In this document: piece by piece, positions 4,653 through 58,401 of the stretch | How positions within the stretch are numbered: the first letter of the stretch is position 1 | Layout of the letters: each line of letters begins with the position of its first letter | From: Alteromonas sp. CI.11.F.A3 | Lineage (GTDB): Bacteria > Pseudomonadota > Gammaproteobacteria > Enterobacterales > Alteromonadaceae | Reading direction: 5' to 3' | NCBI RefSeq assembly: GCF_032925565.1 | Contig: NZ_CP136708.1 | Location: 1,860,001 to 1,924,000, forward strand | Length of the DNA stretch: 64,000 nt | Made by a program: the position numbers and the translations under genes | The notes under the pieces: model-generated | What the model saw: only the letters and a program-made list of their open reading frames with translations | What the model was told of the DNA's origin: nothing | Database searches by the model: none

Positions 4653-4681
4653 AAAAACCCCCGGAAGTTTCCTTCCGGGGG
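4653..4681 (-). terminator. his operon attenuator
   Basis: On the minus strand there is a perfect 10-bp stem (CCCCCGGAAG with CTTCCGGGGG), a 4-nt loop, and then five T. It lies between the His-rich leader peptide and hisG, so it is the transcription attenuator rather than an operon end. A GGAAG on the minus strand near 4726-4730 could compete for the CTTCC arm as part of an antiterminator; that pairing is inferred, not shown. Confidence 0.9.
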
Positions 4682-4746
4682 TCGAGAATTTTTTCTATCT
4701 GCGCCACTGAAAGGAATAATAGACCTTCCAGCACGAACCTGAAAGG

Positions 4747-4791
4747 CTATGCTTTATGATGGTGGTGATGTTTTACAGCGCAGTTAATCAT
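4747..4791 (-). CDS. hisL: his operon leader peptide
   Basis: A 14-residue ORF, MINCAVKHHHHHKA, read on the minus strand about 150 nt ahead of hisG. It carries five consecutive histidine codons (CAT CAC CAC CAT CAT) immediately before the attenuator. Known his leaders (Salmonella, E. coli) use seven His codons to sense charged tRNA-His: stalling there prevents the terminator from forming. The shorter run of five should do the same with lower sensitivity; that last point is inference. It is too short for ordinary gene finders. Confidence 0.9.
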   Translation of the reverse strand: MINCAVKHHHHHKA

Positions 4792-45026: not shown

Positions 45027-45170
45027 TTTGCTGCGTTATTTTTTTATAGATAGCTAAGCGCCAGTAAGAGCCTTTCGGGGCTATTTTGGTATGCGGCAGC
45101 TTTGTACGTTTTGCGGTCCTTAGGAGCTCAACAATTCACTTCACTTATAAAAGGAATATTGTGATTTGGA

Positions 45171-45215
45171 TGCCGTTTACGATTATTCGACTTTATCGAA
45201 TTATCGTAAACGGCA
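45171..45215. repeat. Long near-perfect inverted repeat
   Basis: TGCCGTTTACGAT (45171-45183) and ATCGTAAACGGCA (45203-45215) are exact inverted copies. After one T-T mismatch, ATTCGA pairs with TCGAAT, leaving a CTTTA loop. The 19-bp stem has no T-tract on either side, so it is not a normal terminator. It may be a protein site, an excision scar, or a structured RNA. Confidence 0.7.
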
Positions 45216-45267
45216 CTTAATTCAATTTATGTAGTACCAAACTGTGAAAGCAAGTTAGATTGCCGAA

Positions 45268-45340
45268 GGTCAGCTCATTGTCTCAAGGAGCCTCTGGCGC
45301 TATTAGGCTGCTTCGTACGTGAAGCGGACGTCTAATATCC
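45268..45340 (+). repeat. Dispersed repeat R1
   Basis: First copy of a ~60-bp intergenic repeat (45268-45327), ending in CTTCGTACGTGAAGCGG, with a short tail. By hand count it is identical to R3 at 48 of 60 positions without gaps. The strongest blocks are TTGTCTCAAG and CGTACGTGAAGCGG. It lies upstream of the protease gene. Confidence 0.7.
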
Positions 45341-45442
45341 TTTCCATGAATAAATGTTAGATGTTTTTTTAGGCAAAACGGGTGTTAGTATGAAGTCTTT
45401 GTAGGCGGCTTTTAGTTAGCCCTTAATATACATGGATGTAAT

Positions 45443-46234
45443 ATGAGAGTTTTGGTTTTCTTTTTCGCTGTTTTCGTTGCAACTAGTAGTAATGCTGTAG
45501 TGAAACGGCACGATATCCCCTCCCGAAATTATGTCTTAGAAAACGCACCCAAATACTTAATTGATCTACCTCATGAGGGGCATGGGGTATTGATAAAACC
45601 TCAATGGATTGTGACAGTCGCTCATACCATTTTTTATAATTACATAGGTAAAAAATTACGCGTTGGCGATAAAGTCTTTGAAATAGAAGAGGTTCACATA
45701 CATCCACTTTATATTGAACCAGATGAGGTTCTCTTCAAAGGTGATGCAGCTCCCTTAATGAAGTTTCTAGAATCTAGAAGTGACATTGCTTTAATAAAGC
45801 TATCTTCCCCTGTTACAACGAGAGAACCAATTGATATCTACCCAAACATTGATCAAGTGGGCAAAGAGATCACAGTATTTGGTCGTGGAGCAACAGGTGA
45901 CGGAGAAATTGGTGAAAACCTCGAAACAAAATCATTGCGAGAATTAAACCATTTTAGAAACATTATTGAATCTTCAAAAGGAAACTGGCTCTCATATAAA
46001 TTTAATAAGCCACCTGATGCATTGCCCCTTGAAGGAATGCACGGTGCTGGTGATAGTGGCGGAGCTTCAGTGATAATTGAAAACGGTAAGGCTTATTTGG
46101 TTGGTTTATCGAGTTGGCAAGTTTGGCGTGGAGATCTTGCTAATTTTAAAGGCGGTTTATATGGTACTACCGCTTATCAAGTTAGGGTGTCAAATTACCG
46201 AGACTGGATTGAAAGTGTATTGGGCAACTCGTGA
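45443..46234 (+). CDS. Exported trypsin-like serine protease (S1 fold)
   Basis: A 263-residue protein with a signal peptide (MRVLVFFFAVFVATSSNA). The catalytic triad is visible: His in IVTVAHTIF, Asp in RSDIALIKLSSPV, Ser in GAGDSGGASVI. The usual Cys pairs of animal trypsins are missing, as in many bacterial S1 proteases, and no zymogen activation site is obvious. It lies between two copies of the dispersed repeat, and its AT-rich base composition differs from the fadH block before it, which suggests transfer. Possible roles are nutrition or defence against competitors; nothing nearby tells which. Confidence 0.88.
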   Translation: MRVLVFFFAVFVATSSNAVVKRHDIPSRNYVLENAPKYLIDLPHEGHGVLIKPQWIVTVAHTIFYNYIGKKLRVGDKVFEIEEVHIHPLYIEPDEVLFKGDAAPLMKFLESRSDIALIKLSSPVTTREPIDIYPNIDQVGKEITVFGRGATGDGEIGENLETKSLRELNHFRNIIESSKGNWLSYKFNKPPDALPLEGMHGAGDSGGASVIIENGKAYLVGLSSWQVWRGDLANFKGGLYGTTAYQVRVSNYRDWIESVLGNS

Positions 46235-46323
46235 GTCAGCCTAAAGAATACTTATTGTTTAGTTTCTTCTCCTTTTTGCCTAGTTTAATCAAGCATTCAT
46301 ATGCCCATAGGTAAAGGGAAAAC

Positions 46324-46390
46324 GGCGGCGCCTTGTCTCAAGGACTTAAGGGCTGAAACGCACGAAAACGGAGCTTCGAGCTTTCGGCTC
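46324..46390 (+). repeat. Dispersed repeat R2 (most diverged copy)
   Basis: Shares CCTTGTCTCAAGGA and GGGCTGAAACG with R4 and keeps the order of blocks, but is shorter between them. It lies between the protease gene and the DUF3703 membrane gene. An AGCTTCGAGCT palindrome follows at 46372-46382. Confidence 0.5.
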
Positions 46391-46432
46391 TGTCTATTGC
46401 CTTCATTCATCTCATGGCTTAGCAAATGCACA

Positions 46433-46981
46433 TTATTTCTTGGCATTTATTTTTGCTAAAACGATTTGGTTCTGTTCCGATATTGGCATTGATTTAAATG
46501 CGCTGATATTGCTGCCGCCAGTATTACCATGAGGTAAAAGTCCTACTACCGTTTTAGTTATAGCTCCCAATAAGCGCACAGATTGTCCAATGACTTCGTT
46601 GAGAATCCTATAACGAACGCCAAATACCAACATCTGCCAATGAACTAGCGTATGCAGATACGTTGAACGTTGGCCGATGACATGAGCATCCTCAAGATGT
46701 TTAAACTCAGCTTTAACATCGCCTGTTTCGCGAGCTGTGTTTGCTTGATTTAGTTTTGTTTGTACAAATGGCTTTGCTCTTTCACAGTAGCCTTTTTGGT
46801 GCTTAGAACCAGAATTTCCAACGTTACGCTCACGATAACTAAAAGCTATCAATGAGAGGCTGGCTAGAAGCACAATAGGGTGTAAAACTAAGCTATGAAC
46901 TACGCTTTGCCCTGTGAAAAAACCATGCACTAAACATATACAAATGGAAATTACACCAATCCATACTCCAACTGATTTCAT
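46433..46981 (-). CDS. DUF3703 protein with N-terminal membrane anchor
   Basis: A 182-residue protein. Residues ~1-48 form two hydrophobic spans (VGVWIGVISICICLVHG and VLHPIVLLASLSLIAFSY); after a short linker, residues ~65-182 are a DUF3703 domain. It has LEDAHVIGQRSTYLHTLVHW and LLPHGNTGGSNISAFKSMPI, aligning closely with the stand-alone DUF3703 protein at 48.9 kb. DUF3703 proteins recur in heavy-metal resistance clusters but lack a known function. A MerR-type promoter and a divergent CadR/PbrR-like regulator upstream support a metal-induced role. Confidence 0.8.
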   Translation of the reverse strand: MKSVGVWIGVISICICLVHGFFTGQSVVHSLVLHPIVLLASLSLIAFSYRERNVGNSGSKHQKGYCERAKPFVQTKLNQANTARETGDVKAEFKHLEDAHVIGQRSTYLHTLVHWQMLVFGVRYRILNEVIGQSVRLLGAITKTVVGLLPHGNTGGSNISAFKSMPISEQNQIVLAKINAKK

Positions 46982-47023
46982 TTCGAACTCCTCGCTCGCT
47001 TTTGCTTGCCGTTTAAAAACAAA

Positions 47024-47054
47024 ACTATAATGTCTATACTCGGTATAGGGTCAA
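47024..47054 (-). promoter_or_regulatory. MerR-type promoter/operator of the membrane DUF3703 gene
   Basis: On the minus strand TTGACC, a 19-bp spacer, then TATAGT. The spacer holds the exact dyad CTATAC-CGA-GTATAG. The overlong spacer with a central dyad is the signature of promoters switched on by MerR-family DNA distortion. It is very similar to the promoter at 48185. Confidence 0.85.
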
Positions 47055-47070
47055 ATAAGAATTGAAAGTT

Positions 47071-47463
47071 ATGCAAATAGGCGAACTGGCTAGAAAAACA
47101 AGCTGCACTGTTCAAACGATTCGACTCTATGAGCGAAGCGGATTGTTAAAACTGCCTTCGCGCAGTGCAGGAAACTATAGAGTTTATGATAGCGAAGCGT
47201 TAGAAAGGCTGGTCTTTATTCGACAATGCCGCGCACTGGGAATATCAATTAAAGAGATTGCGACATTGTTACACCGGAAGGAGGCGCCCGACGAAAGCTG
47301 TAATGAGGTAAATCAGCTTATCGCAAAGCATCTTTTAAAAGTTCAGGAAAAGATACGTGAACTGCAAGGACTGCAAATTACATTAGAGCAACTATCAAAC
47401 GAATGCTCAGGTACGAGTACAATTCAAACTTGCGGTATTTTCAGTAAGCTCGAATCCACTTAA
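47071..47463 (+). CDS. MerR-family regulator, Cd(II)/Pb(II) type
   Basis: A 130-residue activator. The winged helix-turn-helix is MQIGELARKTSCTVQTIRLY followed by ERSGLL. A dimerisation helix ends in QLSNECSG. Cysteines C77 (DESC), C112 and C121 (TCGIF) have the same spacing as the lead-binding C78, C113 and C122 of PbrR691, placing it in the CadR/PbrR group. It is divergent from the membrane DUF3703 gene across a 19-bp-spacer promoter. The ATG at 47071 is preferred over an in-frame TTG 9 nt earlier. Confidence 0.87.
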   Translation: MQIGELARKTSCTVQTIRLYERSGLLKLPSRSAGNYRVYDSEALERLVFIRQCRALGISIKEIATLLHRKEAPDESCNEVNQLIAKHLLKVQEKIRELQGLQITLEQLSNECSGTSTIQTCGIFSKLEST

Positions 47464-47513
47464 ACCTTGACCAGTTGATAGATGAGATAGTTACTCTCTT
47501 TAGAGACTGGTAA

Positions 47514-47644
47514 GGTCCGCTCTTTGTCTCAAGATGCCATTGATACTGTTTGGCTGCTCCGTACGTGAAGCGGTCATTGGCACATTGACAATAGAGCAGC
47601 GACAAAGAGCGATCACCAGACGTTCGACCTACCTCAGTCGAACG
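47514..47644 (+). repeat. Dispersed repeat R3 with two flanking hairpins
   Basis: The 60-bp core (47514-47573) matches R1 (48/60) and R4 (45/60). In this copy CGCTCTTTGTC (47518-47528) is repeated inverted as GACAAAGAGCG (47601-47611), and CGTTCGAC (47621-47628) pairs with GTCGAACG (47637-47644). Thus the longest form is a structured element of ~130 bp. It fills most of the 313-bp gap between the tails of the two MerR genes; the rest shows nothing. Confidence 0.7.
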
Positions 47645-47776
47645 ACTGCTTAGCCCAAAAATGCGGACATAGCTATTTATTGTGTATTGGTTACTTTATC
47701 TAATATCAATTAGCGAACCATGTACAATTATGAAACCTTAGGCAAACGTAAACTACAAGACTTGTAGATATAAGTA

Positions 47777-48166
47777 TCACTCTTCAAGCAACTGCAATAC
47801 CCCACATTCTTTAACTTTTCTATCATCTGTGCATGCCGAGGCCATCTCAGATAGAGTAAGTTTTAGCTCCTCAAGCTCTGCAATGCGATGCGTGACGTCA
47901 ACCATATGTTGATGGATCAAATTGTTCACACTAGAACAACTTTTATCGGGATTATTTTTTGTATCCAACAGCTGTTTAATTTCTATTATGGTCAAATCTA
48001 ATGAGCGACATTGTTTAATGAATCGCAGTGCTCTCAACGATGAGGCGTCGTAAATTCTGTAGTTACCTTCACTGCGATTGCAAGCCTCAAACAACCCCTG
48101 TTTTTCATAAAAACGGATCGTTTGAATAGAACACCCACTTTTTTTTGATAGCTCACCTATTTTCAT
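47777..48166 (-). CDS. MerR-family regulator, Cd(II)/Pb(II) type (second copy)
   Basis: A 129-residue paralogue of the regulator at 47.1 kb, with the same layout: MKIGELSKKSGCSIQTIRFY, C77 (DKSC), C112 (SACTD) and C121 (KECGV). Cysteine positions are identical in both proteins. It is divergent from the CDF-DUF3703-CDF-czc genes, with a 19-bp-spacer promoter between, so it should activate the efflux genes when Cd, Pb or Zn binds. The two regulators point away from the shared repeat R3, i.e. their 3' ends face each other. Confidence 0.9.
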   Translation of the reverse strand: MKIGELSKKSGCSIQTIRFYEKQGLFEACNRSEGNYRIYDASSLRALRFIKQCRSLDLTIIEIKQLLDTKNNPDKSCSSVNNLIHQHMVDVTHRIAELEELKLTLSEMASACTDDRKVKECGVLQLLEE

Positions 48167-48184
48167 AAACGTGCCTTTGTGCTG

Positions 48185-48215
48185 TTGACTCTATACTAGC
48201 TATAGACTTTACACT
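48185..48215 (+). promoter_or_regulatory. MerR-type promoter/operator of the efflux genes
   Basis: TTGACT, a 19-bp spacer, TACACT. The spacer contains CTATA-ctagc-TATAG. Layout and sequence closely follow the promoter at 47024-47054, so the two paralogous regulators could act on both. Confidence 0.85.
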
Positions 48216-48247
48216 GTACCTACAGTATTTGGAATAAGAGTTAAATA

Positions 48248-48883
48248 ATGAGTGGTTGCGGCTGTGAAGTGGAAATCAAAGATGCCTCACAAAAACGGGT
48301 TCTGTATTGGCTGCTCGGCATCAATGCGGTGATGTTTTTCGTTGAGATGACTGTGGGTATTTTGGCTGACTCTACTGCTTTGATAGCAGACTCTATGGAC
48401 ATGCTAGCGGATGCGGTTGTATACGGCATAGGTATTTATGCTGTGGGTAAATCTATACTTCACAAAGCCAAAGCTGCACAAATCAGTGGTTACTTTCAGC
48501 TATTGTTGGGCGTAATTATTCTCATTGATATTACCAGAAGGTTATTCTTGGGCAGTGAGCCTATCTCATCACTAATGATAGGGATGGGGTTCATTGCACT
48601 AATTGCAAACGTCGCATGCTTGGTGATTATTCGTAATCATAAAAACGACGAAGTACATATGCGAGCCAGCTGGATTTTTTCGGCCAACGATGTCATCGCC
48701 AACATGGGTGTCATCATCGCCGGAGTATTAGTGGTATGGCTTGATAGCAGAGTACCGGATCTGGTTATCGGCTGTATAGTGTCGATTGTCGTGCTGCGCG
48801 GAGCGTGGATGATCCTAAAAGACGCCAAGCAGGAAGTACTCAATAACGAAGTACAGAAAGGTAAAGCGGGTGATCTACTATGA
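48248..48883 (+). CDS. Short CDF-type cation efflux protein
   Basis: A 211-residue membrane protein of the cation diffusion facilitator superfamily. It has ADSTALIADSMDMLADAVVYG in span 2 and ASWIFSANDVIANMGVII in span 5; the acidic residues in these spans form the transport metal site. The N terminus carries a CGC motif (MSGCGCEVE), a possible extra metal ligand. It lacks the usual C-terminal cytosolic domain, ending soon after span 6. It is the first gene behind the MerR promoter, and its TGA overlaps the DUF3703 start (ATGA). Confidence 0.85.
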   Translation: MSGCGCEVEIKDASQKRVLYWLLGINAVMFFVEMTVGILADSTALIADSMDMLADAVVYGIGIYAVGKSILHKAKAAQISGYFQLLLGVIILIDITRRLFLGSEPISSLMIGMGFIALIANVACLVIIRNHKNDEVHMRASWIFSANDVIANMGVIIAGVLVVWLDSRVPDLVIGCIVSIVVLRGAWMILKDAKQEVLNNEVQKGKAGDLL

Positions 48884-49239
48884 CATACAATAAAGCCGTT
48901 AAGCCGCATATCGATTCCAAATTAACAGATTACTCAGATGCAATGTCTAACAACAATGAGAGGCAGGCATTTGCAGCGCTGGAGGATGCGCATGTAATTG
49001 GTCAGCACTCTACTTTTTATCATTGTTTAATTCATTGTAAAATGCTGCGACATGGTCTTCTAAAAAAAGATTGGAGAGTCGTTTTTGGACAAGTAATAAG
49101 AATAGTTGGTGCTGCAACCAAAACAGCTATCGGCCTTGTACCTAAAGGAAACACAGGCGGCACTGACATCAGCCCCTTTAAGCGACTACCAATCAGTGCT
49201 GAAAATCAAGCGATATTGGATAAAATCAACCATGCATAA
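48880..49239 (+). CDS. DUF3703 family protein
   Basis: A 119-residue soluble protein: ALEDAHVIGQHSTFYHCLIH, then VRVVGAATKTAIGLVPKGNTG-like sequence and ISPFKRLPISAENQAIL. It has no membrane anchor, unlike its paralogue at 46.4 kb. The conserved H, C and H in HVIGQHSTFYHCLIHCKM could bind metal, which is inference. It overlaps the CDF genes on both sides (4 nt before, 8 nt after), so it is translated with them and probably assists efflux. Confidence 0.85.
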   Translation: MTYNKAVKPHIDSKLTDYSDAMSNNNERQAFAALEDAHVIGQHSTFYHCLIHCKMLRHGLLKKDWRVVFGQVIRIVGAATKTAIGLVPKGNTGGTDISPFKRLPISAENQAILDKINHA

Positions 49240-50116
49240 TCATAACCACAGTCACAGTGATAACAGCGCATCAAAACGCATTGGCTGGGCATTTTTCTTG
49301 AATGTCGTATTCACTATCATTGAATTTATCGGTGGATGGCTGACAAACAGCACAGCTATTATGGCCGACGCAGTGCATGATTTGGGCGATAGTTTATCCA
49401 TTGGCACCGCGTGGGGCTTAAATAAACTCAGTGATAAAGAAGCAACCAATACATTTTCCTATGGCTATAAACGCTTTTCTCTTCTTGGTGCATTGATCAA
49501 CGGGTTAGTGTTAACGACTGGCTCAATATGGATCTTATTCGAAGCTATCCCAAGGCTTTCAGCACCCGAAATGCCGCAAGTCGAAGGCATGTTACTCCTG
49601 TCAATTTTTGGCATCGCCGTTAATGGATTTGCTGCTTATAAACTTAGCGAAGGGAATTCCTTAAACGAGCGTATATTAAACTGGCATTTGCTTGAAGATG
49701 TATTGGGTTGGGTGGCAGTGCTGATCGTATCGATTGTGCTGATGTTTAAGCCATGGCCAATTTTAGATCCAATTTTATCTATTGGCTTCACATTATTCAT
49801 TTTATTCAATGTTGTTAGAAATCTAAAAGAAACCTTATTGTTATTCTTGCAAGCCACGCCCGATGCTAAGCAGATGGAGGAAGTGCGTAAAGTACTCATG
49901 TCATTTGATGATGTGGCGGATATACATCATTTTCATATCTGGTCTTTGGACGGTGAACATAGCGTCATGACGGCACATGTGGAGTTGAAACAAGATGTTT
50001 CGGTTTCTCAATTGAGAACACTTAAAGACGAACTTCGCCAAGGTCTTGATGAGTTTGATTTTGTGCACACTACCATTGAAATTGAATTTGCCAATGAAGA
50101 TTGTCGTGATGAGTAA
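49232..50116 (+). CDS. CDF family cation transporter (CzcD/ZitB-like)
   Basis: A 294-residue Zn/Cd/Co exporter. A His-rich N terminus (MHNHNHSHSD) precedes six spans; TAIMADAVHDLGDSLSIG in span 2 has the HDxxD transport site and LLEDVLGWVAVL in span 5 its partner. The cytosolic C-terminal domain has VADIHHFHIWSLDGEHSVMTAHVEL, as in CzcD. The ATG at 49232 is inside the end of DUF3703; a longer frame back to 49106 would only repeat out-of-frame DUF3703 sequence and is rejected. Confidence 0.92.
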   Translation: MHNHNHSHSDNSASKRIGWAFFLNVVFTIIEFIGGWLTNSTAIMADAVHDLGDSLSIGTAWGLNKLSDKEATNTFSYGYKRFSLLGALINGLVLTTGSIWILFEAIPRLSAPEMPQVEGMLLLSIFGIAVNGFAAYKLSEGNSLNERILNWHLLEDVLGWVAVLIVSIVLMFKPWPILDPILSIGFTLFILFNVVRNLKETLLLFLQATPDAKQMEEVRKVLMSFDDVADIHHFHIWSLDGEHSVMTAHVELKQDVSVSQLRTLKDELRQGLDEFDFVHTTIEIEFANEDCRDE

Positions 50117-50203
50117 TGTAATGATTGAAATACTTTGTTTAGGTTGGTCGATTGGTCTTAGTTCGATTACCTGTTAATATGAAAAAGATGAGAGTAGATA
50201 GAT

Positions 50204-50599
50204 ATGTTTAGTGTAAGGGTGACAAGTTACCTGCTGATTTCGCTGATTTTGTTTCAGTCGTTTTCTGCTGTCGCCAATACATTGGATTCTCATACTGTCG
50301 ACTCACAACATCTAAATGAAATACACGAACATCAATTGGGCGATAACATCGCTACTGAACATGCGCAGGTTCAACTAAAATCTAGCGAACAACCTGATGC
50401 TGATAACGTCCCCGTAGATAAATCTCACAATCCTGCTGATTGCCACCACTGTGGCCATTGTCACGGAACCCATGCCCAATGGATTGTAAGCACCAATGGT
50501 ATCGAACTCGATTCTGTTGCCACCCATCACAATTTCTATTACTTATCAAAAGTAATAGATGCACCGATCACGCAATTACTACGCCCACCTAAAGCATAA
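50204..50599 (+). CDS. Small exported metal-binding protein (CzcI-like)
   Basis: A 131-residue protein with a signal peptide ending near residue 24 (FSAVAN). The mature protein is rich in H, D and E, with a dense cluster CHHCGHCHGTHAQW near residues ~85-98. Position directly before czcC and size suggest a CzcI-like or similar periplasmic metal-binding accessory of the Czc pump. Family membership is inferred from context, since sequence identity to CzcI is not obvious by eye. A short hairpin separates it from czcC. Confidence 0.65.
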   Translation: MFSVRVTSYLLISLILFQSFSAVANTLDSHTVDSQHLNEIHEHQLGDNIATEHAQVQLKSSEQPDADNVPVDKSHNPADCHHCGHCHGTHAQWIVSTNGIELDSVATHHNFYYLSKVIDAPITQLLRPPKA

Positions 50600-50621
50600 C
50601 CCTGAACTAATCAAACACCGT

Positions 50622-50639
50622 TCGCCAACAGTTTGGCGA
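50622..50639 (+). terminator. Short intercistronic hairpin before czcC
   Basis: TCGCCAA-CAGT-TTGGCGA, then an AT-rich TATATATATTTTTG. A 7-bp stem is weak; it may be a partial terminator or RNA processing site that lowers czcCBA relative to the CDF genes. Confidence 0.4.
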
Positions 50640-50672
50640 TATATATATTTTTGATAATTTAGGAATAAAACA

Positions 50673-51995
50673 ATGATGCATTTTTCATTGAGTCGCCCTG
50701 TGCGTGTGCACGCTTGGGTGATTTCCACGATGCTTGTCCTTTTGACAACACACACCGTGGTAGTAGCACAAACAAACAGTATCACCAATCGAGAAATGAC
50801 CTTGCAAAGCGCCATACAGCGAACATTAGCGAATTCACCCGAGTTGCATGAGTTCACATATAGGCAACAAGCGATTGAGGGAGAAATTAAAACTGCTTCT
50901 CTCAAACCAGCCCTCAACGTAGGCATTGAAATGGAAAACTTCTTAGGAACAGGCGAGGTCTCTGGCATTAAGGACACCGAGTTGACTCTCACATTGTCGT
51001 CGGTCATTGAATTGGGCAATAAACTCAACTCACGTAAGGCGTTTGCTAAGGCGCAATCCACCTTAGTCGAAGCGCAAAAACAAGTGCACACCTTGGATGT
51101 ACTGGCTGAAGTGACACGTCGCTACATCGATGTATTGGCGCAACAAGCGTTAATTGACGCGCAAAAAGATGCAGAAACACTTGCTCGATATACCTATCAA
51201 GCAGTCACAAAACGCGTGGATGCAGGTGCTTCCCCTGCATTTGAACAGAAACGCGCTGAAGCAGCTTTAGCAAGAGCTAGATTGGATGTGGTGACGGCAC
51301 AGCAAACTAAGCAAGCCATGATAAATAGTCTGGCTATTATGTGGGGGGAGAAAGACCCCACTTTTACCTATGTTGAGGGTGACTTATTTGCGCTGCAATC
51401 GTCTCCTTCGTTAACCGCGCTTTTTACCACATTATTGGACAGTCCCAATCTTGAGGTCTATGCACAAGAATCGAGATTGCAGGCTTCTCAAGTCCGCCTT
51501 ACTCAAGCAGCTAATCAATCGGATTTAAGCTGGACGGCCGGTATCAGGCGCATGAATGGCATAGATGAAACAGCCTTTGTAGCAGGCGTGAGTATGCCTC
51601 TGTTTGCCGGTGACCGAAATCTTGGCGAGTACCAAAAGCAGCGGGCAATTCAGGCACAGCTGGAACAACAAAAAGAGTCAGCGACGCAAAACCTATACCA
51701 TCAGCTAAATATGGCCTTGATGGTCAGAAACAATGCGTTGCTCAATGTACAGACACTGCAAAACTCTATTATCCCACCCTTAGTTCAAGCGCTGGAATTA
51801 GTAGAACAAGCCTATATCAACGGTCGATTCAGCTACCTTGAATGGGTGAGTACACGTCAAGAACTACTCAATGCCAAACAAGCCTTAATTCAATCAGCGA
51901 AGCAAGCTCATCAGCGCGGTGCAGATATCGAATCACTGACTGCACAGCCACTTGTGGATACGATCAACACCTCTTTTTCGAGAAAAACAAAATGA
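50673..51995 (+). CDS. czcC: TolC-family outer membrane factor CzcC
   Basis: A 440-residue outer membrane channel subunit of the CzcCBA efflux pump. A signal peptide ends near VVVAQTN (about residue 33). Two TolC-like repeats follow (about 45-235 and 240-425), with the typical long coiled-coil helices rich in A, Q and E (LARYTYQAVTKRVDAGAS; LVEQAYINGRFSYLEWVSTRQELL). The last sequence, including RFSYLEWVSTRQ, is common to CzcC-type factors. Its stop overlaps the czcB start (ATGA). AGGAATAAAACA precedes the ATG. Confidence 0.92.
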   Translation: MMHFSLSRPVRVHAWVISTMLVLLTTHTVVVAQTNSITNREMTLQSAIQRTLANSPELHEFTYRQQAIEGEIKTASLKPALNVGIEMENFLGTGEVSGIKDTELTLTLSSVIELGNKLNSRKAFAKAQSTLVEAQKQVHTLDVLAEVTRRYIDVLAQQALIDAQKDAETLARYTYQAVTKRVDAGASPAFEQKRAEAALARARLDVVTAQQTKQAMINSLAIMWGEKDPTFTYVEGDLFALQSSPSLTALFTTLLDSPNLEVYAQESRLQASQVRLTQAANQSDLSWTAGIRRMNGIDETAFVAGVSMPLFAGDRNLGEYQKQRAIQAQLEQQKESATQNLYHQLNMALMVRNNALLNVQTLQNSIIPPLVQALELVEQAYINGRFSYLEWVSTRQELLNAKQALIQSAKQAHQRGADIESLTAQPLVDTINTSFSRKTK

Positions 51996-52930
51996 ACAAA
52001 AATATATTAAATAAGAAGCAAAACGCTCTGTTAGTTTTCATTGTTTGCAGTGCGTTGGGATTTTTATCAAGCACCACAATACAAGCATCAGAAGGCGAGC
52101 ATGGTAAAGAGGAAGCCCATAAGGATGAACGCGTACTCATGCCTGACAGCATGGCGCAAAAAATGGGCGTGGTGACACAAAGTGTTAATGCCGGTCAACT
52201 TAATATCACCACCACAGTATATGGTAATATAGTGACCGACCCTGCTTCACTGAGTCATGTGCGTGCACGATTCGACGGTATGGTGACCAAGGTCAATGCA
52301 AATTTAGGTAAAAAAGTTAAAAAAGGCGACACACTGGCGGTAGTTGAATCCAACGAAAGCCTGAAAAGTTATCCCGTTGCCGCGCCGTTTTCAGGCACCG
52401 TGATTGCCAGACATGCCAATGAAGGCGAGTTATCTAATGGCCAAGTGTTATTTTCAATCGCAAACTATGATGACGTGTGGGCACAGCTTAAAGTCTTCCC
52501 ACAACAGCTCTCTGATATTGCAGAGCAGCAAAGTGTTCAACTTAGTGTGGCAGGCTCATCGTTAGAAACCACTATCCAGCATATCTTACCCTCGCCAGAT
52601 GAAAAACCGTATGTATTGGCGTATGCCAAAATAGCTAATACCTCAGGTCAGTGGCCGGTTGGCGCGGCTATCAAAGGGCTTGTCACAATCAACAAACTTG
52701 ATGTCGCCATGATGGTGCCTAAAGCTTCGATTCAAGAGTTTGAAGGGGCTTCTGTCGTGTTTGTCAAAGAAGGTGATGAATACCGTCCCGTGCCCGTTAC
52801 CTTAGGTCAACAAGATAACTACAATATTGAAGTGTTATCAGGTCTGCACATTGCAGATGTGATTGTCAGCCAGAACAGCTACCTGTTTAAAGCCGATTTA
52901 GAAAAGTCGGAGGCCGGTCATGACCACTAA
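51992..52930 (+). CDS. czcB: RND efflux periplasmic adaptor CzcB
   Basis: A 312-residue membrane fusion protein that links CzcA to CzcC. A signal peptide or anchor lies at residues ~10-33 and is followed by an acidic/His stretch, EGEHGKEEAHKDE. The barrel-sandwich (lipoyl-like) domain has VRARFDGMVTKVNANLGKKVKKGDTL and SYPVAAPFSGTVIARHANEGE with almost no alpha hairpin between, typical of short metal-efflux adaptors. The beta-barrel and membrane-proximal domains follow. The start is the ATG overlapping czcC; the longer frame to 51842 lies inside czcC and is rejected. Confidence 0.92.
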   Translation: MNKNILNKKQNALLVFIVCSALGFLSSTTIQASEGEHGKEEAHKDERVLMPDSMAQKMGVVTQSVNAGQLNITTTVYGNIVTDPASLSHVRARFDGMVTKVNANLGKKVKKGDTLAVVESNESLKSYPVAAPFSGTVIARHANEGELSNGQVLFSIANYDDVWAQLKVFPQQLSDIAEQQSVQLSVAGSSLETTIQHILPSPDEKPYVLAYAKIANTSGQWPVGAAIKGLVTINKLDVAMMVPKASIQEFEGASVVFVKEGDEYRPVPVTLGQQDNYNIEVLSGLHIADVIVSQNSYLFKADLEKSEAGHDH

Positions 52931-52983
52931 TAACTCAATGCTATTTACTTGGTCATGCGTCTCAGTTATTGGGGGACGAACAC

Positions 52984-55900
52984 ATGATTGAATCCATATT
53001 ACGTTTATCCATAGAGCGACGAGGGATAATGCTGATGTTGATCTTCCTTGTGCTGGGCATGGGGATATTCAGTTATCAAAAATTACCTATCGATGCGGTA
53101 CCCGATATCACTAACGTGCAAGTGCAAATCAATACACAAGCACCGGGCTATTCGCCTTTGGAAACCGAGCAGCGGATCACATTCGTAGTAGAAACAGCAC
53201 TGGCGGGATTACCTGACCTGTCCTACACCCGCTCTTTATCACGCTACGGCCTGTCTCAGGTAACAGCGGTATTTGATGAAGGCACTGATCTGTATTTTGC
53301 GCGTAATCTCATCAATACGCGATTAGGCGCAATCAAAAGTCAGCTACCAGAAGGGTTAGAGCCTGAAATGGGACCTATCGCTACTGGGTTGGGCGAAATC
53401 TACATGTATACCTTGCGAGCCAAGCAAAATGCCATGCAAAAAAACGGTGAGCCGTACAATGCAATGGCGCTTCGCGAGATACACGACTGGATCGTAAAAC
53501 CGCAGCTCGCACTGGTTAAAGGGATCACTGAAGTCAACGCCATTGGTGGGTATGTAAAACAATATCATGTGAATCCTGAACCACAGAAAATGCTGAATTT
53601 TGATATTGGTCTAAGTGATATCCATCGTGCGCTGGAGCGAAACAACACCAATCAGGGAGCGGGGTTTGTTGAGCGAAATGGGCAACAAATACTGGTGCGC
53701 TCACAAGGTCAACTACAGACACTTAGCGATATAGAAAATGTGGTAATAAAACGCATTAATACTGTCCCTGTTGCGGTGAAAGACATTGGCAGTGTAGCTA
53801 TTGGTAAGGAGCTGAGAACTGGTGCGGCAACGCAGGAGGGTGAAGAGACCGTTTTAGGTACGGCAATGATGCTAGTCGGCGAAAACTCACGAGCCGTTGC
53901 TCAATCCGTTGCCAAAAAGGTGAAGGACATTCAATCCAGCTTACCTGATGGTATTGTCATTGAGCCAGTCTATGACCGTACCCTATTGGTCGATAAAGCT
54001 ATCGAAACGGTTCAGAAGAATTTAGTAGAAGGTGCGTTATTAGTCATAGTGATCTTGTTCATATTGCTTGGCAATATTCGCGCCGCGCTCATCACTGCGG
54101 CAGTTATACCGCTGGCGATGTTGGCGACCATTACAGGGATGGTTAATACCGGTGTGTCTGCCAACCTAATGAGCCTTGGCGCATTGGACTTTGGATTAAT
54201 TGTCGATGGTGCGGTGATCATCGTAGAGAACTGTATCAGGCGGTTATCCGAGTCTCAGAAACGCACAGGCGGAGTCTTGCCACTTAAAGAGCGGCTAGAA
54301 CTGGTTTTTCAAGCGACCAATGAAGTCATTCGTCCTAGCTTGTTTGGTGTATTGATTATTACTGTGGTGTATATCCCGCTGTTCTCATTGACAGGGGTTG
54401 AGGGCAAGATGTTTCAGCCAATGGCGGCAACGGTCATCATGGCGCTGATAGCAGCGATGCTGTTCTCCATTACTATTGTACCAGCGGCAGTCGCGATGTT
54501 TATGGGCGGTAAAGTCAGTGAAAAAGAAAGCTTCATTATTGTTGCAGCCAAGTCAGCCTATCGCCCCATCATTCACCTTGCACTGAAATTACGCTGGATA
54601 GTGCTTGTCGGCTCAGTCGTGCTGGTAGTGGGCAGCTTTTGGTTGGCAACGCGATTAGGCTCTGAGTTTGTTCCCCAGCTTGACGAAGGAGACATCGCAC
54701 TGCACGCCATGCGAATACCGGGCACAGGTATTGAACAAGCCGTCGCAATGCAAAAAACACTTGAATCTACCTTGATGGAATACGAACAGGTACTCACAGT
54801 GTTTGCAAAAACCGGTACCGCAGAAGTAGCTACCGATGCGATGCCGCCCAACGTAACCGATACCTTTGTGATGCTAAAACCACGAGCGCAGTGGCCTGAT
54901 CCTAACCTATCAAAAGCTGATTTCGTGGAAACCCTTGAGCGAGATTTACAAGCGGTGACAGGCAATAACTATGAGTTTACCCAACCTATCCAAATGCGCT
55001 TTAACGAGTTGATTAGTGGGGTAAGGGCTGACCTTGGTATAAAAGTCTTCGGAGATGATTTAACCACGCTTGTTGCCTCTGCAAACGACATCTTAACGGT
55101 TTTGCAATCAATTGACGGCGTGGCGGATGCACGACTTGAGCAGGTCGATGATATCCCTATCTTCACTATCAACCCTAAGCTAGTCGAGTTGGCACGTTAT
55201 GGATTGGACATGGCCGATTTGCAGGAGTGGTTGGCGTCAGCTATCGGTGGTAATACTGCTGGCTTAATTTTTGAGGGAGATAGACGCTTTGAGTTGCTTG
55301 TGCGATTTGATGAAGGTATCCGCACAGATTTAGATGCCATTGGCAGCACTCCTATCATTACATCGGATGGGGAATTTGTGCCGTTATCAGAAGTCGCTAC
55401 GCTGGCTTACTCGTCTGTTCCCAATCAAATCAGTAGAGAAAACGGTAAGCGCAGAGTCGTGGTTACCGCCAATGTCAGAGAACGCGACTTAGGGAGCTTT
55501 GTTGACGAAGCAAAAATCAAAATAACCGAACAGGTTTCACTCCCAGCAGGCTACTGGCTGGATTATGGCGGCACGTTTGAGCAGCTTGAAAGTGCAAGTC
55601 AGCGACTGGCTATCGTGGTGCCTGCCACGCTTTTTCTGATACTTGTGTTACTCGTGGTGGTGTTTGGCTCATTTCGTGATGCCTTGATCATCTTCACTGG
55701 CGTGCCTTTAGCCTTAACAGGTGGTGTTTTTGCGCTTTGGATGCGTGACATGCCATTGTCTATATCTGCCGGAGTCGGATTTATTGCGCTCTCTGGTATT
55801 GCGGTACTAAACGGCCTAGTGATGTTGTCATTTATTAAACAGCGAGTACTAGAAACAGGTGACTTAATTAACTCAATCGTTGACGGAGCTATCACAAGAT

Positions 55901-56097
55901 TGCGTCCGGTTTTGATGACAGCACTGGTAGCAAGCTTAGGCTTTATTCCCATGGCACTTAATGTCGGGACTGGCGCTGAAGTGCAAAGACCGCTTGCAAC
56001 GGTGGTGATTGGCGGGATCATCTCGTCCACCATTCTAACATTGGTGGTTTTGCCTATTTTGTATCGGATGATGCACTCCAAATTAACCAGAGTGTGA
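52984..56097 (+). CDS. czcA: Heavy-metal RND transporter CzcA
   Basis: A 1037-residue inner membrane proton-driven pump of the HME-RND family. Two periplasmic loops and 12 spans are evident. Span 4 holds the family motif LDFGLIVDGAVIIVEN (D402 to N416) with the acidic residues for proton transfer; this DFGxxVDG(A/S) form is that of the Zn/Co/Cd (HME1) pumps rather than the Cu/Ag pumps. RLGSEFVPQLDEGDI is in the second loop, as in CzcA. The ATG follows a GGGGGAC site; the upstream TTG frame is not used. It is the last gene of the operon. Confidence 0.95.
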   Translation: MIESILRLSIERRGIMLMLIFLVLGMGIFSYQKLPIDAVPDITNVQVQINTQAPGYSPLETEQRITFVVETALAGLPDLSYTRSLSRYGLSQVTAVFDEGTDLYFARNLINTRLGAIKSQLPEGLEPEMGPIATGLGEIYMYTLRAKQNAMQKNGEPYNAMALREIHDWIVKPQLALVKGITEVNAIGGYVKQYHVNPEPQKMLNFDIGLSDIHRALERNNTNQGAGFVERNGQQILVRSQGQLQTLSDIENVVIKRINTVPVAVKDIGSVAIGKELRTGAATQEGEETVLGTAMMLVGENSRAVAQSVAKKVKDIQSSLPDGIVIEPVYDRTLLVDKAIETVQKNLVEGALLVIVILFILLGNIRAALITAAVIPLAMLATITGMVNTGVSANLMSLGALDFGLIVDGAVIIVENCIRRLSESQKRTGGVLPLKERLELVFQATNEVIRPSLFGVLIITVVYIPLFSLTGVEGKMFQPMAATVIMALIAAMLFSITIVPAAVAMFMGGKVSEKESFIIVAAKSAYRPIIHLALKLRWIVLVGSVVLVVGSFWLATRLGSEFVPQLDEGDIALHAMRIPGTGIEQAVAMQKTLESTLMEYEQVLTVFAKTGTAEVATDAMPPNVTDTFVMLKPRAQWPDPNLSKADFVETLERDLQAVTGNNYEFTQPIQMRFNELISGVRADLGIKVFGDDLTTLVASANDILTVLQSIDGVADARLEQVDDIPIFTINPKLVELARYGLDMADLQEWLASAIGGNTAGLIFEGDRRFELLVRFDEGIRTDLDAIGSTPIITSDGEFVPLSEVATLAYSSVPNQISRENGKRRVVVTANVRERDLGSFVDEAKIKITEQVSLPAGYWLDYGGTFEQLESASQRLAIVVPATLFLILVLLVVVFGSFRDALIIFTGVPLALTGGVFALWMRDMPLSISAGVGFIALSGIAVLNGLVMLSFIKQRVLETGDLINSIVDGAITRLRPVLMTALVASLGFIPMALNVGTGAEVQRPLATVVIGGIISSTILTLVVLPILYRMMHSKLTRV

Positions 56098-56104
56098 TTG
56101 TTGG

Positions 56105-56130
56105 GCACCGTATTGCAGAAAATACGGTGC
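56105..56130 (+). terminator. Stem-loop after czcA
   Basis: GCACCGTATT and AATACGGTGC form a perfect 10-bp stem with a 6-nt loop, 7 nt after the czcA stop. The tail TCTTCGTCTGG is only moderately T-rich, so termination may be partial. Between here and 56411 only repeat R4 was found. Confidence 0.65.
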
Positions 56131-56293
56131 TCTTCGTCTGGAAATTCAAAACAACTGAAAATGATTACTGAATTGCGTATTCACCAATAAGAAGCTGATT
56201 GTACGGAATACTACAATTACCACCAATTCAATCAAGGTCGAATGATGATCTGCACATTGGCACATACCGGAATCAAGAACCGCGTGGCCTGAA

Positions 56294-56360
56294 CGTCCGC
56301 TCCTTGTCTCAAGATGCCCCTTACGCTGCGGGGCTGAAACGTAAGTAAAGCGGCCCCTCG
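56294..56360 (+). repeat. Dispersed repeat R4
   Basis: CGTCCGCTCCTTGTCTCAAG opens this copy and AAGCGG closes the 60-bp core (56294-56353). By hand count it agrees with R3 at 45 of 60 positions without gaps. It lies between the end of the czc operon and the TauE gene, i.e. at the right border of the metal block. Confidence 0.7.
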
Positions 56361-56411
56361 CTGTAAAAGAGAGACTGCTTTTAAAATACGTTATTTGTCA
56401 GAGCGGCTGAC

Positions 56412-57212
56412 TTACATAACAGCCCATGCCATTTTTACTCCTAATACGACTAAAAGTAGTGCGAAAAGCTTCTTAAGTATTTTGACGGGAAGCTTATGTG
56501 AGATTTTCGCACCAATGGGCGCAGTGACAACACTTGCGAGTGAAATTACTCCCACTGCTGGAAGATAAATATATCCATAAGTATTGGCAACGCCTGTGGT
56601 TTGTCCTGCACCATTAAGTAAATAACCTGCGGAACCCGCAACTGCTATAGGCAAACCTATCGCTGCTGATGTTCCTACTGCTTCGGACAATTTCATTCCT
56701 TGCCGATTAAGATAAGGCACTAACAGTGAGCCTCCACCAATAGAAACTAACGCGGAGATTCCACCGATACAAATAGACAATATACCCGCTGTGGTCTTTG
56801 TATCTTTTTTTGTCACTGATATTTGGCTGCCCTTGAATAGTATTTTGTGGGCTGTATAGAACATGAATACCGCAAAAAAAAGTGCAAGATAGATTGCACT
56901 TGTTTGTGCAGCAAAAAAAGTCGCGGCAAAAGTGCCAATAATACAGCCTGCGCCCATTACCCACACAATGGGCCAATTAACAGCTTTTAGTTTGTGATGC
57001 GCGCGTGCACTTGAAAACGAGGTTACAATAATACAAGCCATAGATGTCCCTAACGCTACATGCAAAACTTGGTGTTCGGGGATACCTTGGTAAACCAACA
57101 TACTTGTTAATATAGGTACGAGAATCCCTCCACCACCAACACCCAATAAACCTGCAATGAAACCCACTACACTACCCAACAGTGCAAAAGCTAGCACCCA
57201 TTCAAATGTCAT
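56412..57212 (-). CDS. TauE/SafE family anion exporter (second)
   Basis: A 266-residue polytopic membrane protein with the duplicated family motif: VVGFIAGLLGVGGGGILVPIL near the start and ISALVSIGGGSLLVPYLNRQG near the middle. It is of the more common, GVGGGxxxVP type, unlike the diverged paralogue at 10.4 kb. Likely exports sulfite, sulfonates or another organic anion. It is divergent from an AraC-family gene, with a dyad in the 86-bp space, so the regulator probably controls it. Confidence 0.88.
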   Translation of the reverse strand: MTFEWVLAFALLGSVVGFIAGLLGVGGGGILVPILTSMLVYQGIPEHQVLHVALGTSMACIIVTSFSSARAHHKLKAVNWPIVWVMGAGCIIGTFAATFFAAQTSAIYLALFFAVFMFYTAHKILFKGSQISVTKKDTKTTAGILSICIGGISALVSIGGGSLLVPYLNRQGMKLSEAVGTSAAIGLPIAVAGSAGYLLNGAGQTTGVANTYGYIYLPAVGVISLASVVTAPIGAKISHKLPVKILKKLFALLLVVLGVKMAWAVM

Positions 57213-57269
57213 CGATGAACCCCAGTTATCAAAACAATTATGATATTGCGGATAAAAACGGGTAGCATA

Positions 57270-57294
57270 TCGACAACTAGATAACTAGTGTCGA
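57270..57294. promoter_or_regulatory. Imperfect dyad between TauE and araC-type genes
   Basis: CGACA-ACTAG-ATAA-CTAGT-GTCG: ACTAG/CTAGT and CGAC/GTCG are inverted, with one bulged A. It ends 5 nt before the regulator ATG, a place suited to autoregulation and control of the divergent exporter gene. Confidence 0.45.
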
Positions 57295-57298
57295 GAAT

Positions 57299-58090
57299 AT
57301 GACAAAAAACATTTTGCTTCCGCCATCAGAAGCAAGCCAGGAACCTCTAAATGTGCCTGTCAAAGTCGTACAACGAGACATTCCAAAGCAATTTGAAATT
57401 GAAATGCATAGCCATGAGTGGGGGCAATTTGTTTATGCGAGTAAAGGGGTTATGCTGGTTGAAACACCAGAACATTGCTATATAGTGCCGCCTGAGCAAG
57501 GTGTTTGGTTGCTGCCTCATGTTAACCATAAAGTGCGTGCGCTGACGCATGTTTTTCTCACGAGCTTCTATATTGCAACTGAGATGCTGATTCACATGCC
57601 ACAGGAAAGTGGAGTTCTCGAAGTTAGCCCTTTTTTACAAGTGTTAATTGATGAAGCGAAATACTTTTCCGGCGACTACACTTGGGAAGATACGCAAGGC
57701 TTGCATCTTCGTCTGATACTCCACACAATAAATAAGGCTCCTTCCGCAATATTTCAGTTGCCCTTTCCATCCGACAAGCGTCTGGTTGCAATTCTTTATG
57801 CAATTCGCGAAACACCTTCAAATAACTATAGCCTAGAGCAGTGGGGTAACACTGTAGGTGCATCCAGCCGCACATTGTCTCGATTGTTTAAAAAGGAGAC
57901 TGGGCTCCATTACTCGGAATGGCGGCAACGCCTCATTATCCAAATTGCTATTGGAAAACTGAATGAAGGAGGCATTATTGCTAATGTTGCCCATGATCTC
58001 GGGTATGAGTCCCCTTCAGCTTTTACTTATATGTTTAGAGAGAAAACAGGCATGACTCCGAGTGCGTTTAAGCGAAGTACTTTCGGTTAG
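57299..58090 (+). CDS. AraC-family regulator with cupin sensor domain
   Basis: A 263-residue regulator. The N-terminal half is a cupin-like pocket (HSHEWGQFVYASKGVMLVET, then EQGVWLLPHVNHKVRAL). The C-terminal AraC domain (about 165-263) has the two helix-turn-helix units: WGNTVGASSRTLSRLFKKET and ANVAHDLGYESPSAFTYMFR. This cupin-AraC type often controls an adjacent exporter. It is divergent from TauE. The 311-bp gap behind it is AT-rich and empty of genes. Confidence 0.9.
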   Translation: MTKNILLPPSEASQEPLNVPVKVVQRDIPKQFEIEMHSHEWGQFVYASKGVMLVETPEHCYIVPPEQGVWLLPHVNHKVRALTHVFLTSFYIATEMLIHMPQESGVLEVSPFLQVLIDEAKYFSGDYTWEDTQGLHLRLILHTINKAPSAIFQLPFPSDKRLVAILYAIRETPSNNYSLEQWGNTVGASSRTLSRLFKKETGLHYSEWRQRLIIQIAIGKLNEGGIIANVAHDLGYESPSAFTYMFREKTGMTPSAFKRSTFG

Positions 58091-58401
58091 TCTATTGGAT
58101 TTCTACACTGACTGTATGCTTCTGAATGATGCTTAACTTGTCTTTAACAGACTTCTTTAGTTGATACAGCCAGTATCCGCTCTTCATTTAATGGCTCCGA
58201 CTTTTTTAGCACATATATTAGTAAGTATAAAAACATCTTATCTGCGCTAACACTTTCATCTATTTGAAATAAACTAATCATCAATAAAGCATATAATGAA
58301 ACAGTAAAACCCCAGACATCTTTAAATAAAACAGGTTATTAATAAGCGCTGTTTTTTCAATTTAAGCTATCAAATTATAACGAACAAGAGACTCATTTAT
58401 T
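58091..58401. other. AT-rich intergenic stretch, no gene seen
   Basis: About 310 bp between the AraC-type gene and the EamA transporter gene. No ORF of note, no strong hairpin and no copy of the R repeat were seen. It should hold the promoter of the transporter gene, but no box is convincing. Confidence 0.5.

Follow-up and report, generated by a model that had tools for sequence, protein, structure and literature searches.

Why should one short sequence recur, always in the same orientation, at the joints of an array of accessory genes? The question is raised by a 64,000-nucleotide stretch of Alteromonas sp. CI.11.F.A3 (NZ_CP136708.1, positions 1,860,001 to 1,924,000; henceforth the window, numbered from its first nucleotide), in which four copies of a repeat, here termed R, lie on the plus strand: R1 (45259..45336), R2 (46314..46380), R3 (47510..47584, with a tail A reaching to about 47640) and R4 (56287..56362), R1 and R4 being recovered by pattern, blastn and model matches alike. 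We consider it probable, from comparison of sequences, that R is the gene-less joint of a family of small tyrosine-recombinase elements that bracket accessory cassettes.

The motif TTGTCTCAAG occurs exactly four times in the window, each time on the plus strand (45278, 46333, 47524 and 56304), and ungapped alignment of the 60-bp cores yields 48/60 identities for R1-R3, 45/60 for R3-R4 and 43/60 for R1-R4. This agrees with the orientation and the first two counts, made by hand, in an earlier reading of this DNA (the original prediction), which had also pointed to inverted repeats of 11 bp (47518-47528/47601-47611) and 8 bp (47621-47628/47637-47644) at R3, both of which are present. Elsewhere in the window the R3 core matches at best 29/60 on the plus and 30/60 on the minus strand, but two weaker forms have to be added: R0 (45060..45130, plus strand), a degenerate copy directly 3′ of the conserved left anchor gene, with its right half GGCAGCTTTGTACG from 45095, which is the left border of the accessory block; and a tentative short form, R5 (ACTTGTCTTTAACAGAC, 58136..58152, plus strand; weak form at 58138), which was seen by eye, is not reported by the model and sits just before the homology with relatives resumes (58238). 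Each of R1-R4 lies 3′ of an open reading frame (ORF) of the same orientation, namely the anchor gene, which by eye we take to encode an oxidoreductase (R1), a protease (R2), the first of two MerR regulators (R3) and an RND pump (R4); convergent ORFs flank R2, R3 and R4. Across the 4.66-Mb single-contig genome the strict pattern finds six copies in the forward orientation (two more than the window's four), none in reverse and none with a reversed-pattern control, while blastn with R3 alone returns R1′ (1.6e-12), R1 (8.2e-10), a partial R3′ (9.9e-9) and R4 (9.5e-6). R2 is truncated by 10 bp relative to its counterpart at 1.445 Mb.

These copies mark joints, between which blocks of genes have been gained, lost, duplicated or exchanged, with the junctions lying within R. 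The segment 45261..47529 (plus strand) has moved as a unit: this 2.3-kb block, R1-protease-R2-DUF3703-MerR-R3, is 98.2% identical to positions 1443965-1446243 of the same genome (7966-10244 of locus L020), the two genomic copies standing 460 kb apart. At its left edge R1 and its counterpart differ in their left part and are nearly identical from GTACGT onward; at its right edge homology stops within R3 at TTGTCT (47529). In another genome of the same species (G047) window positions 45110-47635 are missing at this place: the left anchor and R0 run straight into the sequence behind R3, positions 47636-56253 are matched at 90%, and the cargo block 47777..56097 is thus kept without the R1-R3 block. 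The anchor gene itself is found in 57 of the 59 genomes of the genus. Five close relatives are homologous to the window up to a point within R0, 45108/45109 in four of them and 45121 in one; counting the window's own genome, six different continuations follow at this border. The R model detects the right half of R0 in four of these relatives (E 1e-4 to 4e-4). In six genomes at ~78% identity the 1.5 kb behind the anchor hold no R match with an E below 0.5. Elsewhere on the chromosome, in front of a gene that we presume to be DUF885-like, three genomes share the right flank and differ on the left up to TTGTCT, the difference in G047 reaching five bases beyond it. A serine-hydrolase-like cassette, so named by eye (L020:6423-7835 and L189-L193), ends in an R left arm in each of five genomes; what follows takes four different forms, one of them common to G047 and G049. 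Pairs of copies with a common flank number 35 upstream only, 103 downstream only and 4 on both sides; many of these pairs reflect repeated attC or tail sequences, and therefore the gene-level cases are counted as the real evidence. The idea that the repeats are borders of movable or recombining cassettes is borne out by these duplications, absences and exchanges.

An enzyme that could act at such joints is suggested by a gene found near several R copies. It encodes a 203-aa protein whose sole domain is Phage_integrase (PF00589, 2.7e-17) and whose motifs LRGCDLV, HSLRR, LLGH and TVRYLG, located by pattern, presumably hold the R-H-R-Y catalytic positions. At locus L085 this gene splits the repeat: on the same strand, positions 2-39 of the R hidden Markov model (HMM) end 45 nt before the start codon and positions 47-77 begin 8 nt after the stop codon, both half matches reaching E<=0.05 in 658 kb with an HMM that was built before the gene was known. 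Because of this split we regard R as the gene-less form of the recombinase element. In L095, L096 and L192, too, a left half-site stops short of the start codon, by 39-44 nt, and in L149, from another genus, 18 nt separate the last matched codon from the right half. Compared by letters, the left arm and core start of R resemble the leader of the gene, and its GCTGT.GGGCTG..GTACGTAAAGCGG resembles the stretch directly behind the stop codon, tail A included.

The likeness of the ends extends to copies far from the gene. Among 125 R copies away from it, 27 are matched at E<=0.01 by the left flank of L085 (best 1e-7, the best matches also sharing an attC in front of R) and 21 by its right flank (best 3e-27; R3 of the window at 7e-4). 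Left-end agreement recurs in L096 (36 copies) and L192 (14), both of which have weak right ends (0.39 each). Right-end agreement is seen in L126 (3), whose left flank shares with other copies solely the module in front of R, and in L205 (5), which has lost the left end. When R-end queries are compared with the flanks of 11 recombinase loci, p<0.05 against plain shuffles is reached by nine left and eight right ends, versus 2/22 swapped controls, and GTCCGCT, with at most one mismatch and at most 130 nt upstream, accompanies 10/11 close homologues versus 70/519 background windows. Candidate terminal inverted repeats, AACGTCCGCT/AGCGGACGTT, are visible in the consensus. That the loci were chosen mainly for holding R does not account for the exact placement of the gene within the repeat. 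Elsewhere, L125 carries a 42%-identical homologue 446 nt from an R copy, outside the repeat; a homologue in L205, on the Alteromonas macleodii plasmid pKD02, stands beside Pycsar in a copy broken by an early stop; and one in L210, on a Shewanella baltica plasmid, is 53% identical and stands beside restriction-modification and Abi genes, with no site motif.

We accordingly examined how widely the repeat is distributed and how it is oriented. A sequence-only model of 18 copies matches at E<=0.1 in 49 of the 59 genus genomes, weak matches included, and at E<=0.001 in 15 of 196 family genomes (6 Alteromonas, 9 of other genera); the strict pattern finds 21 distinct places outside the own genome, 14 of them judged genuine from their letters, and an HMM from 64 aligned matches gives 131 hits among the fetched loci. 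Carriers include A. lipotrueae, Alteromonas sp. ASW11-130, Salinimonas chungwhensis, an Alteromonadaceae metagenome-assembled genome and the plasmid pASTE61-200 of A. stellipolaris; in viral contigs the strict pattern has no match. The copies, which occur across Alteromonas, are nearly always intergenic, only 4 of 95 (score >=25) lying within an ORF of >=100 aa though such ORFs cover 72% of the loci. The gene upstream is co-oriented with R in 75/90 cases and the gene downstream in 57/84, and neighbouring copies <=10 kb apart share their orientation in 44 of 47 pairs (opposite in 3), counts that come from a simple ORF caller and in which copies within one genome are not independent. A search of the literature, covering few subscription journals, found no description of R or of this recombinase's sites.

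The shared ends, the splitting of R by the gene, the direct orientation, the movement of blocks and the junctions inside R are together consistent with the recombinase acting at the joints. The predicted element would be ~0.8 kb long and carry one gene, for the 203-aa tyrosine recombinase, which consists of the catalytic domain only; its left end (TTGAACGTCCGCTnnTTGTCT and the leader) and its right end (GCTGT.GGGCTG..GTACGTAAAGCGGACGTTGG, directly behind the stop codon) would correspond to the halves of R. Copies in direct orientation, with or without the gene, placed behind the 3′ ends of accessory genes would bracket these like the joints of a cassette array, and the blocks between them could be acquired, deleted, duplicated or exchanged through junctions within R. 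We infer that the recombinase would be supplied in trans, by gene-bearing copies in the cell or on plasmids, and would recombine the sites. A short form, TTGTCT-AAAGCGGAC, may be the empty site of the element.

Related ends can be followed beyond Alteromonas. Small integrases of this kind are common, with at least 7999 homologues at E<=1e-20 among 8000 scored candidates and 246 plasmid records at E<=1e-60, the 40 listed among these carrying for the most part no annotation beyond site-specific integrase or tyrosine-type recombinase. In enterobacterial plasmids (~80% protein identity) motifs resembling the R arms precede the start codon by ~60 nt and follow the stop codon by 35-40 nt, and the gene flanks reach p<0.05 with the left-arm query in 5/5 and with the right-arm query in 3/5 cases; at the single Pseudoalteromonas locus the arm queries gave 0/1 on the left and 0/1 on the right. 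With the joined ends of the Pantoea element, minus its gene, as the query, 2 of 103 records show a one-piece full-length match (75-76% identity, E 3e-3). Both of these gene-less plasmid copies are intergenic, after a co-oriented and before a convergent gene, and they have the ends CGTCYGCTTTTCGCTCA and TGTGCCAGWAGCGGACGT in common with the gene-bearing element while the short core differs.

Several findings weigh against a recombinase-driven system. No recombination was observed as such. Gene-bearing copies are few, close homologues being present in 7 of 77 loci and several of them broken, though 7/77 is no estimate of abundance, since the loci were fetched mainly for holding R. None was seen in the window, L020, L083, L084 or L180, the remaining genome not having been searched for the gene, and no recombinase was seen among the window cargo. 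The possibility that the recombinase travels as array cargo was rejected: 30 proteins of L088, L092 and L175/L177/L178 include, besides other functions, unrelated DDE-type transposases only (IS66, DDE_Tnp_1, rve). Terminal inverted repeats taken on their own reach p<0.05 in 1 of 19 recombinase loci. By plain blastn (E<=0.01) the 12 flanks of six non-Alteromonas loci have no plus-strand R match, four of them match R on the minus strand (one or two copies each), and the right flank of L126 matches seven R copies on the minus strand; eight more distant homologues lack the upstream motif. Furthermore, some R copies abut classical attC sites in a fixed register, from which it follows that the integron integrase IntI also acts in these arrays. 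Finally, the 16 resolved junctions fall into two zones, 6 at consensus positions 0-30 and 10 at 48-73; they are what remains of 23 estimates after leaving out three with wide support and four R0 rows that are mis-aligned because R0 is degenerate, and they are partly dependent, two rows being one junction in two genomes, some copies recurring, and one row comparing two gene-bearing copies.

This spread over two zones does not support one fixed crossover base, and homologous exchange would give the like. The main alternative holds that the R copies are inert remnants of a recombinase element, scattered in direct orientation, between which RecA-dependent homologous exchange, either chromosomal or after plasmid uptake, moves the blocks. 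The presence of R on Alteromonas plasmids is in line with it, as is the large excess of gene-less over gene-bearing copies in the fetched loci. However, the stretches available for such exchange are short and diverged, the window cores being alike at just 43-48 of 60 positions, and homology with the five relatives ends in R0 at 45108/45109 (four) or 45121 (one) ahead of continuations that differ. We judge homologous exchange among inert copies to be less likely than the recombinase-element reading, of which it is the main rival.

A further alternative would make R an atypical site of attachment for the chromosomal integron of the host, with IntI joining cassettes to it. An integron integrase scores above the cut-off in 56 of the 59 genus genomes (in the own genome at 4.19 Mb), and, in other genomes, a classical attC directly precedes 12 of the 103 R copies that have a left end; for 10 of these the register is identical, R's GTTGAAC serving as the attC core. 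A hairpin-bearing sequence behind some copies, tail B (consensus GGAAACGGGTGTTACTATGAAGTCTCAGTAATAAGCTGTTA, with a four-codon ORF; e.g., L095:435-512, L092 and the L177:5023 region), is known from 16 distinct tails in 17 rows, one tail having been counted twice; 9 of the 16 end in CTGTTA, after which the gene starts differ, in the manner of integron cassettes. The attC abutting R and these CTGTTA ends indicate that two cassette systems are interleaved, and tail B is perhaps an attI-like insertion point for integron cassettes. As a query, tail B matches 12 plasmid records, all of Alteromonas and 11 of them over the tail itself, and a third conserved downstream sequence, tail C (CATTTCATGTATTCGCTTTTATTTTCACTCACCAGTTTTGCGAACGC), is present in L090, L098, L107, L111, L117 and L118.

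The comparison with attC sites suggested by the original prediction came out negative: a model of 18 attC rows, 13 of them from the host integron, has no match in the window or L020 at E<=10. Moreover, the classical attC of the array at 4.19 Mb are unlike R, no R lies in the 40 kb around it, R has no conserved fold, and most junctions other than those with attC lie inside R away from the GTTGAAC core; we thus rejected R as the attC of the host integron and see but a slim chance that it is an aberrant site of IntI. The co-occurrence of intI with R in other genera, 8 of 9 carriers (the carrier G246 being absent among the listed intI holders) versus 154/196 overall, was set aside as not informative. 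Excerpts of PMC4119200 describe an Alteromonas integron, attC sites at further places in the genome and an attC length of 55-87 bp. Beside the integron integrase of the own genome (L083:16484-17623; contig C1, 4.19 Mb) stand three tandem repeats of a ~420-bp cassette, the later ones 92% and 65% like the first.

That R could be a promoter, leader, terminator or other structured RNA is very improbable: the conserved mini-ORF and hairpin of tail B upstream of genes, the terminator-like location of three of the four window copies between convergent genes, and the folding of R1′ at 1.444 Mb into a single-stranded DNA structure that 2 of 200 shuffles equal would favour it, but an Rfam scan gives no match at R, RNAalifold finds 0 consensus pairs over 19 long copies and four over 18 short ones, 26, 78 and 72 of 200 shuffles fold as well as R1, R3 and R4, respectively, the downstream gene is co-oriented in only 57/84 cases, and such a role gives no reason for homology to end inside R. 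The structured-RNA or repetitive-extragenic-palindrome-like option of the original prediction falls with it, and its interpretation of the repeats is, on the whole, partly supported; an RNA or single-strand fold and a promoter role were both rejected on these grounds.

Returning to the recombinase-element reading, the R system can be set beside several known ones. Like integron arrays with their attC and IntI, it forms a direct array of sites, each behind its gene, at which cassettes are gained or lost, and a tyrosine recombinase is probably involved; it differs in that R is unlike the attC of the genus and has no conserved fold, and in that the recombinase has the catalytic domain only, is not IntI, and is encoded inside the site rather than beside an attI. 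It recalls elements of the miniature inverted-repeat transposable element type in that its short gene-less copies have the two ends of a gene-bearing element and are more numerous than the latter among the fetched loci, but the enzyme belongs to the tyrosine recombinases instead of the DDE transposases, and the copies are joints of gene blocks. Matches in NCBIfam and PDB relate the 203-aa protein to XerC/XerD-type and Fim-type enzymes by its tyrosine recombinase catalytic domain, a model of short DNA invertases being among its weak NCBIfam matches; the protein scores far below the curated cut-offs of these families, and the R sites are dispersed joints rather than one invertible switch or a dif site. 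Excerpts of two studies (PMC4119200, PMC5217437) describe additive flexible islands of Alteromonas, with gene-cassette addition and loss and metal-resistance cargo as seen here, and, in PMC5217437, plasmid exchange; the mechanisms named in these excerpts are a tRNA target, an integron, plasmids or conjugative elements, and they describe no R-like repeat.

More tentatively, it is possible that we are dealing with a second integron-like cassette system, in which a tyrosine recombinase consisting of the catalytic domain alone is encoded within its own recombination site and gene-less sites serve as array joints and as insertion points in chromosomes and plasmids and can join with classical integron cassettes at a common core, the family extending from Alteromonas to Pantoea and perhaps much wider. 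On the recombinase-element reading, a family of recombinases that has gone unnamed gains likely target sites. If R is the site of this recombinase, it would provide marine bacteria and enterobacterial plasmids with a second cassette-type exchange route beside integrons, and the gene-less sites could be used to locate cassette borders where no integrase is nearby.

The genes between the joints are varied. Behind R1 stands a diverged member of the B tails (45337..45420, plus strand), comprising the hairpin region, the GGGTGTTAGTATGAAGTCTTTGTAG mini-ORF and then the leader of a trypsin-like protease (45443..46234, plus strand; PF00089), which has its second copy at 1.444 Mb and a 73% homologue on a Pseudoalteromonas plasmid, there ~2.6 kb from a copy of the 203-aa recombinase gene. 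The duplicated cargo further comprises, by domain scan, a DUF3703 protein (46433..46981, minus strand) and MerR regulator 1 (47062..47463, plus strand). The cargo block 47777..56097 encodes MerR 2, two cation efflux proteins, DUF3703 and an outer membrane efflux protein according to Pfam, together with the RND pump, assigned by DNA homology to a pump of G058, and what by eye we take to be an efflux adaptor. Two DUF3703 genes (46433-46981 and 48880-49239) thus flank R3 in one metal-resistance block. Behind R4 (56412..58090) follow a TauE-like exporter (minus strand) and an AraC-type regulator (plus strand), the latter with a DNA match at E<=1e-40 in one of the 59 genus genomes, its own; the right neighbour is presumably EamA-like, and two genes at 1.44 Mb are presumably serine-hydrolase-like and DUF885-like. 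Away from the array, the window holds a histidine operon leader (RF00514) at 4653-4771 on the minus strand, with 67.4 bits.

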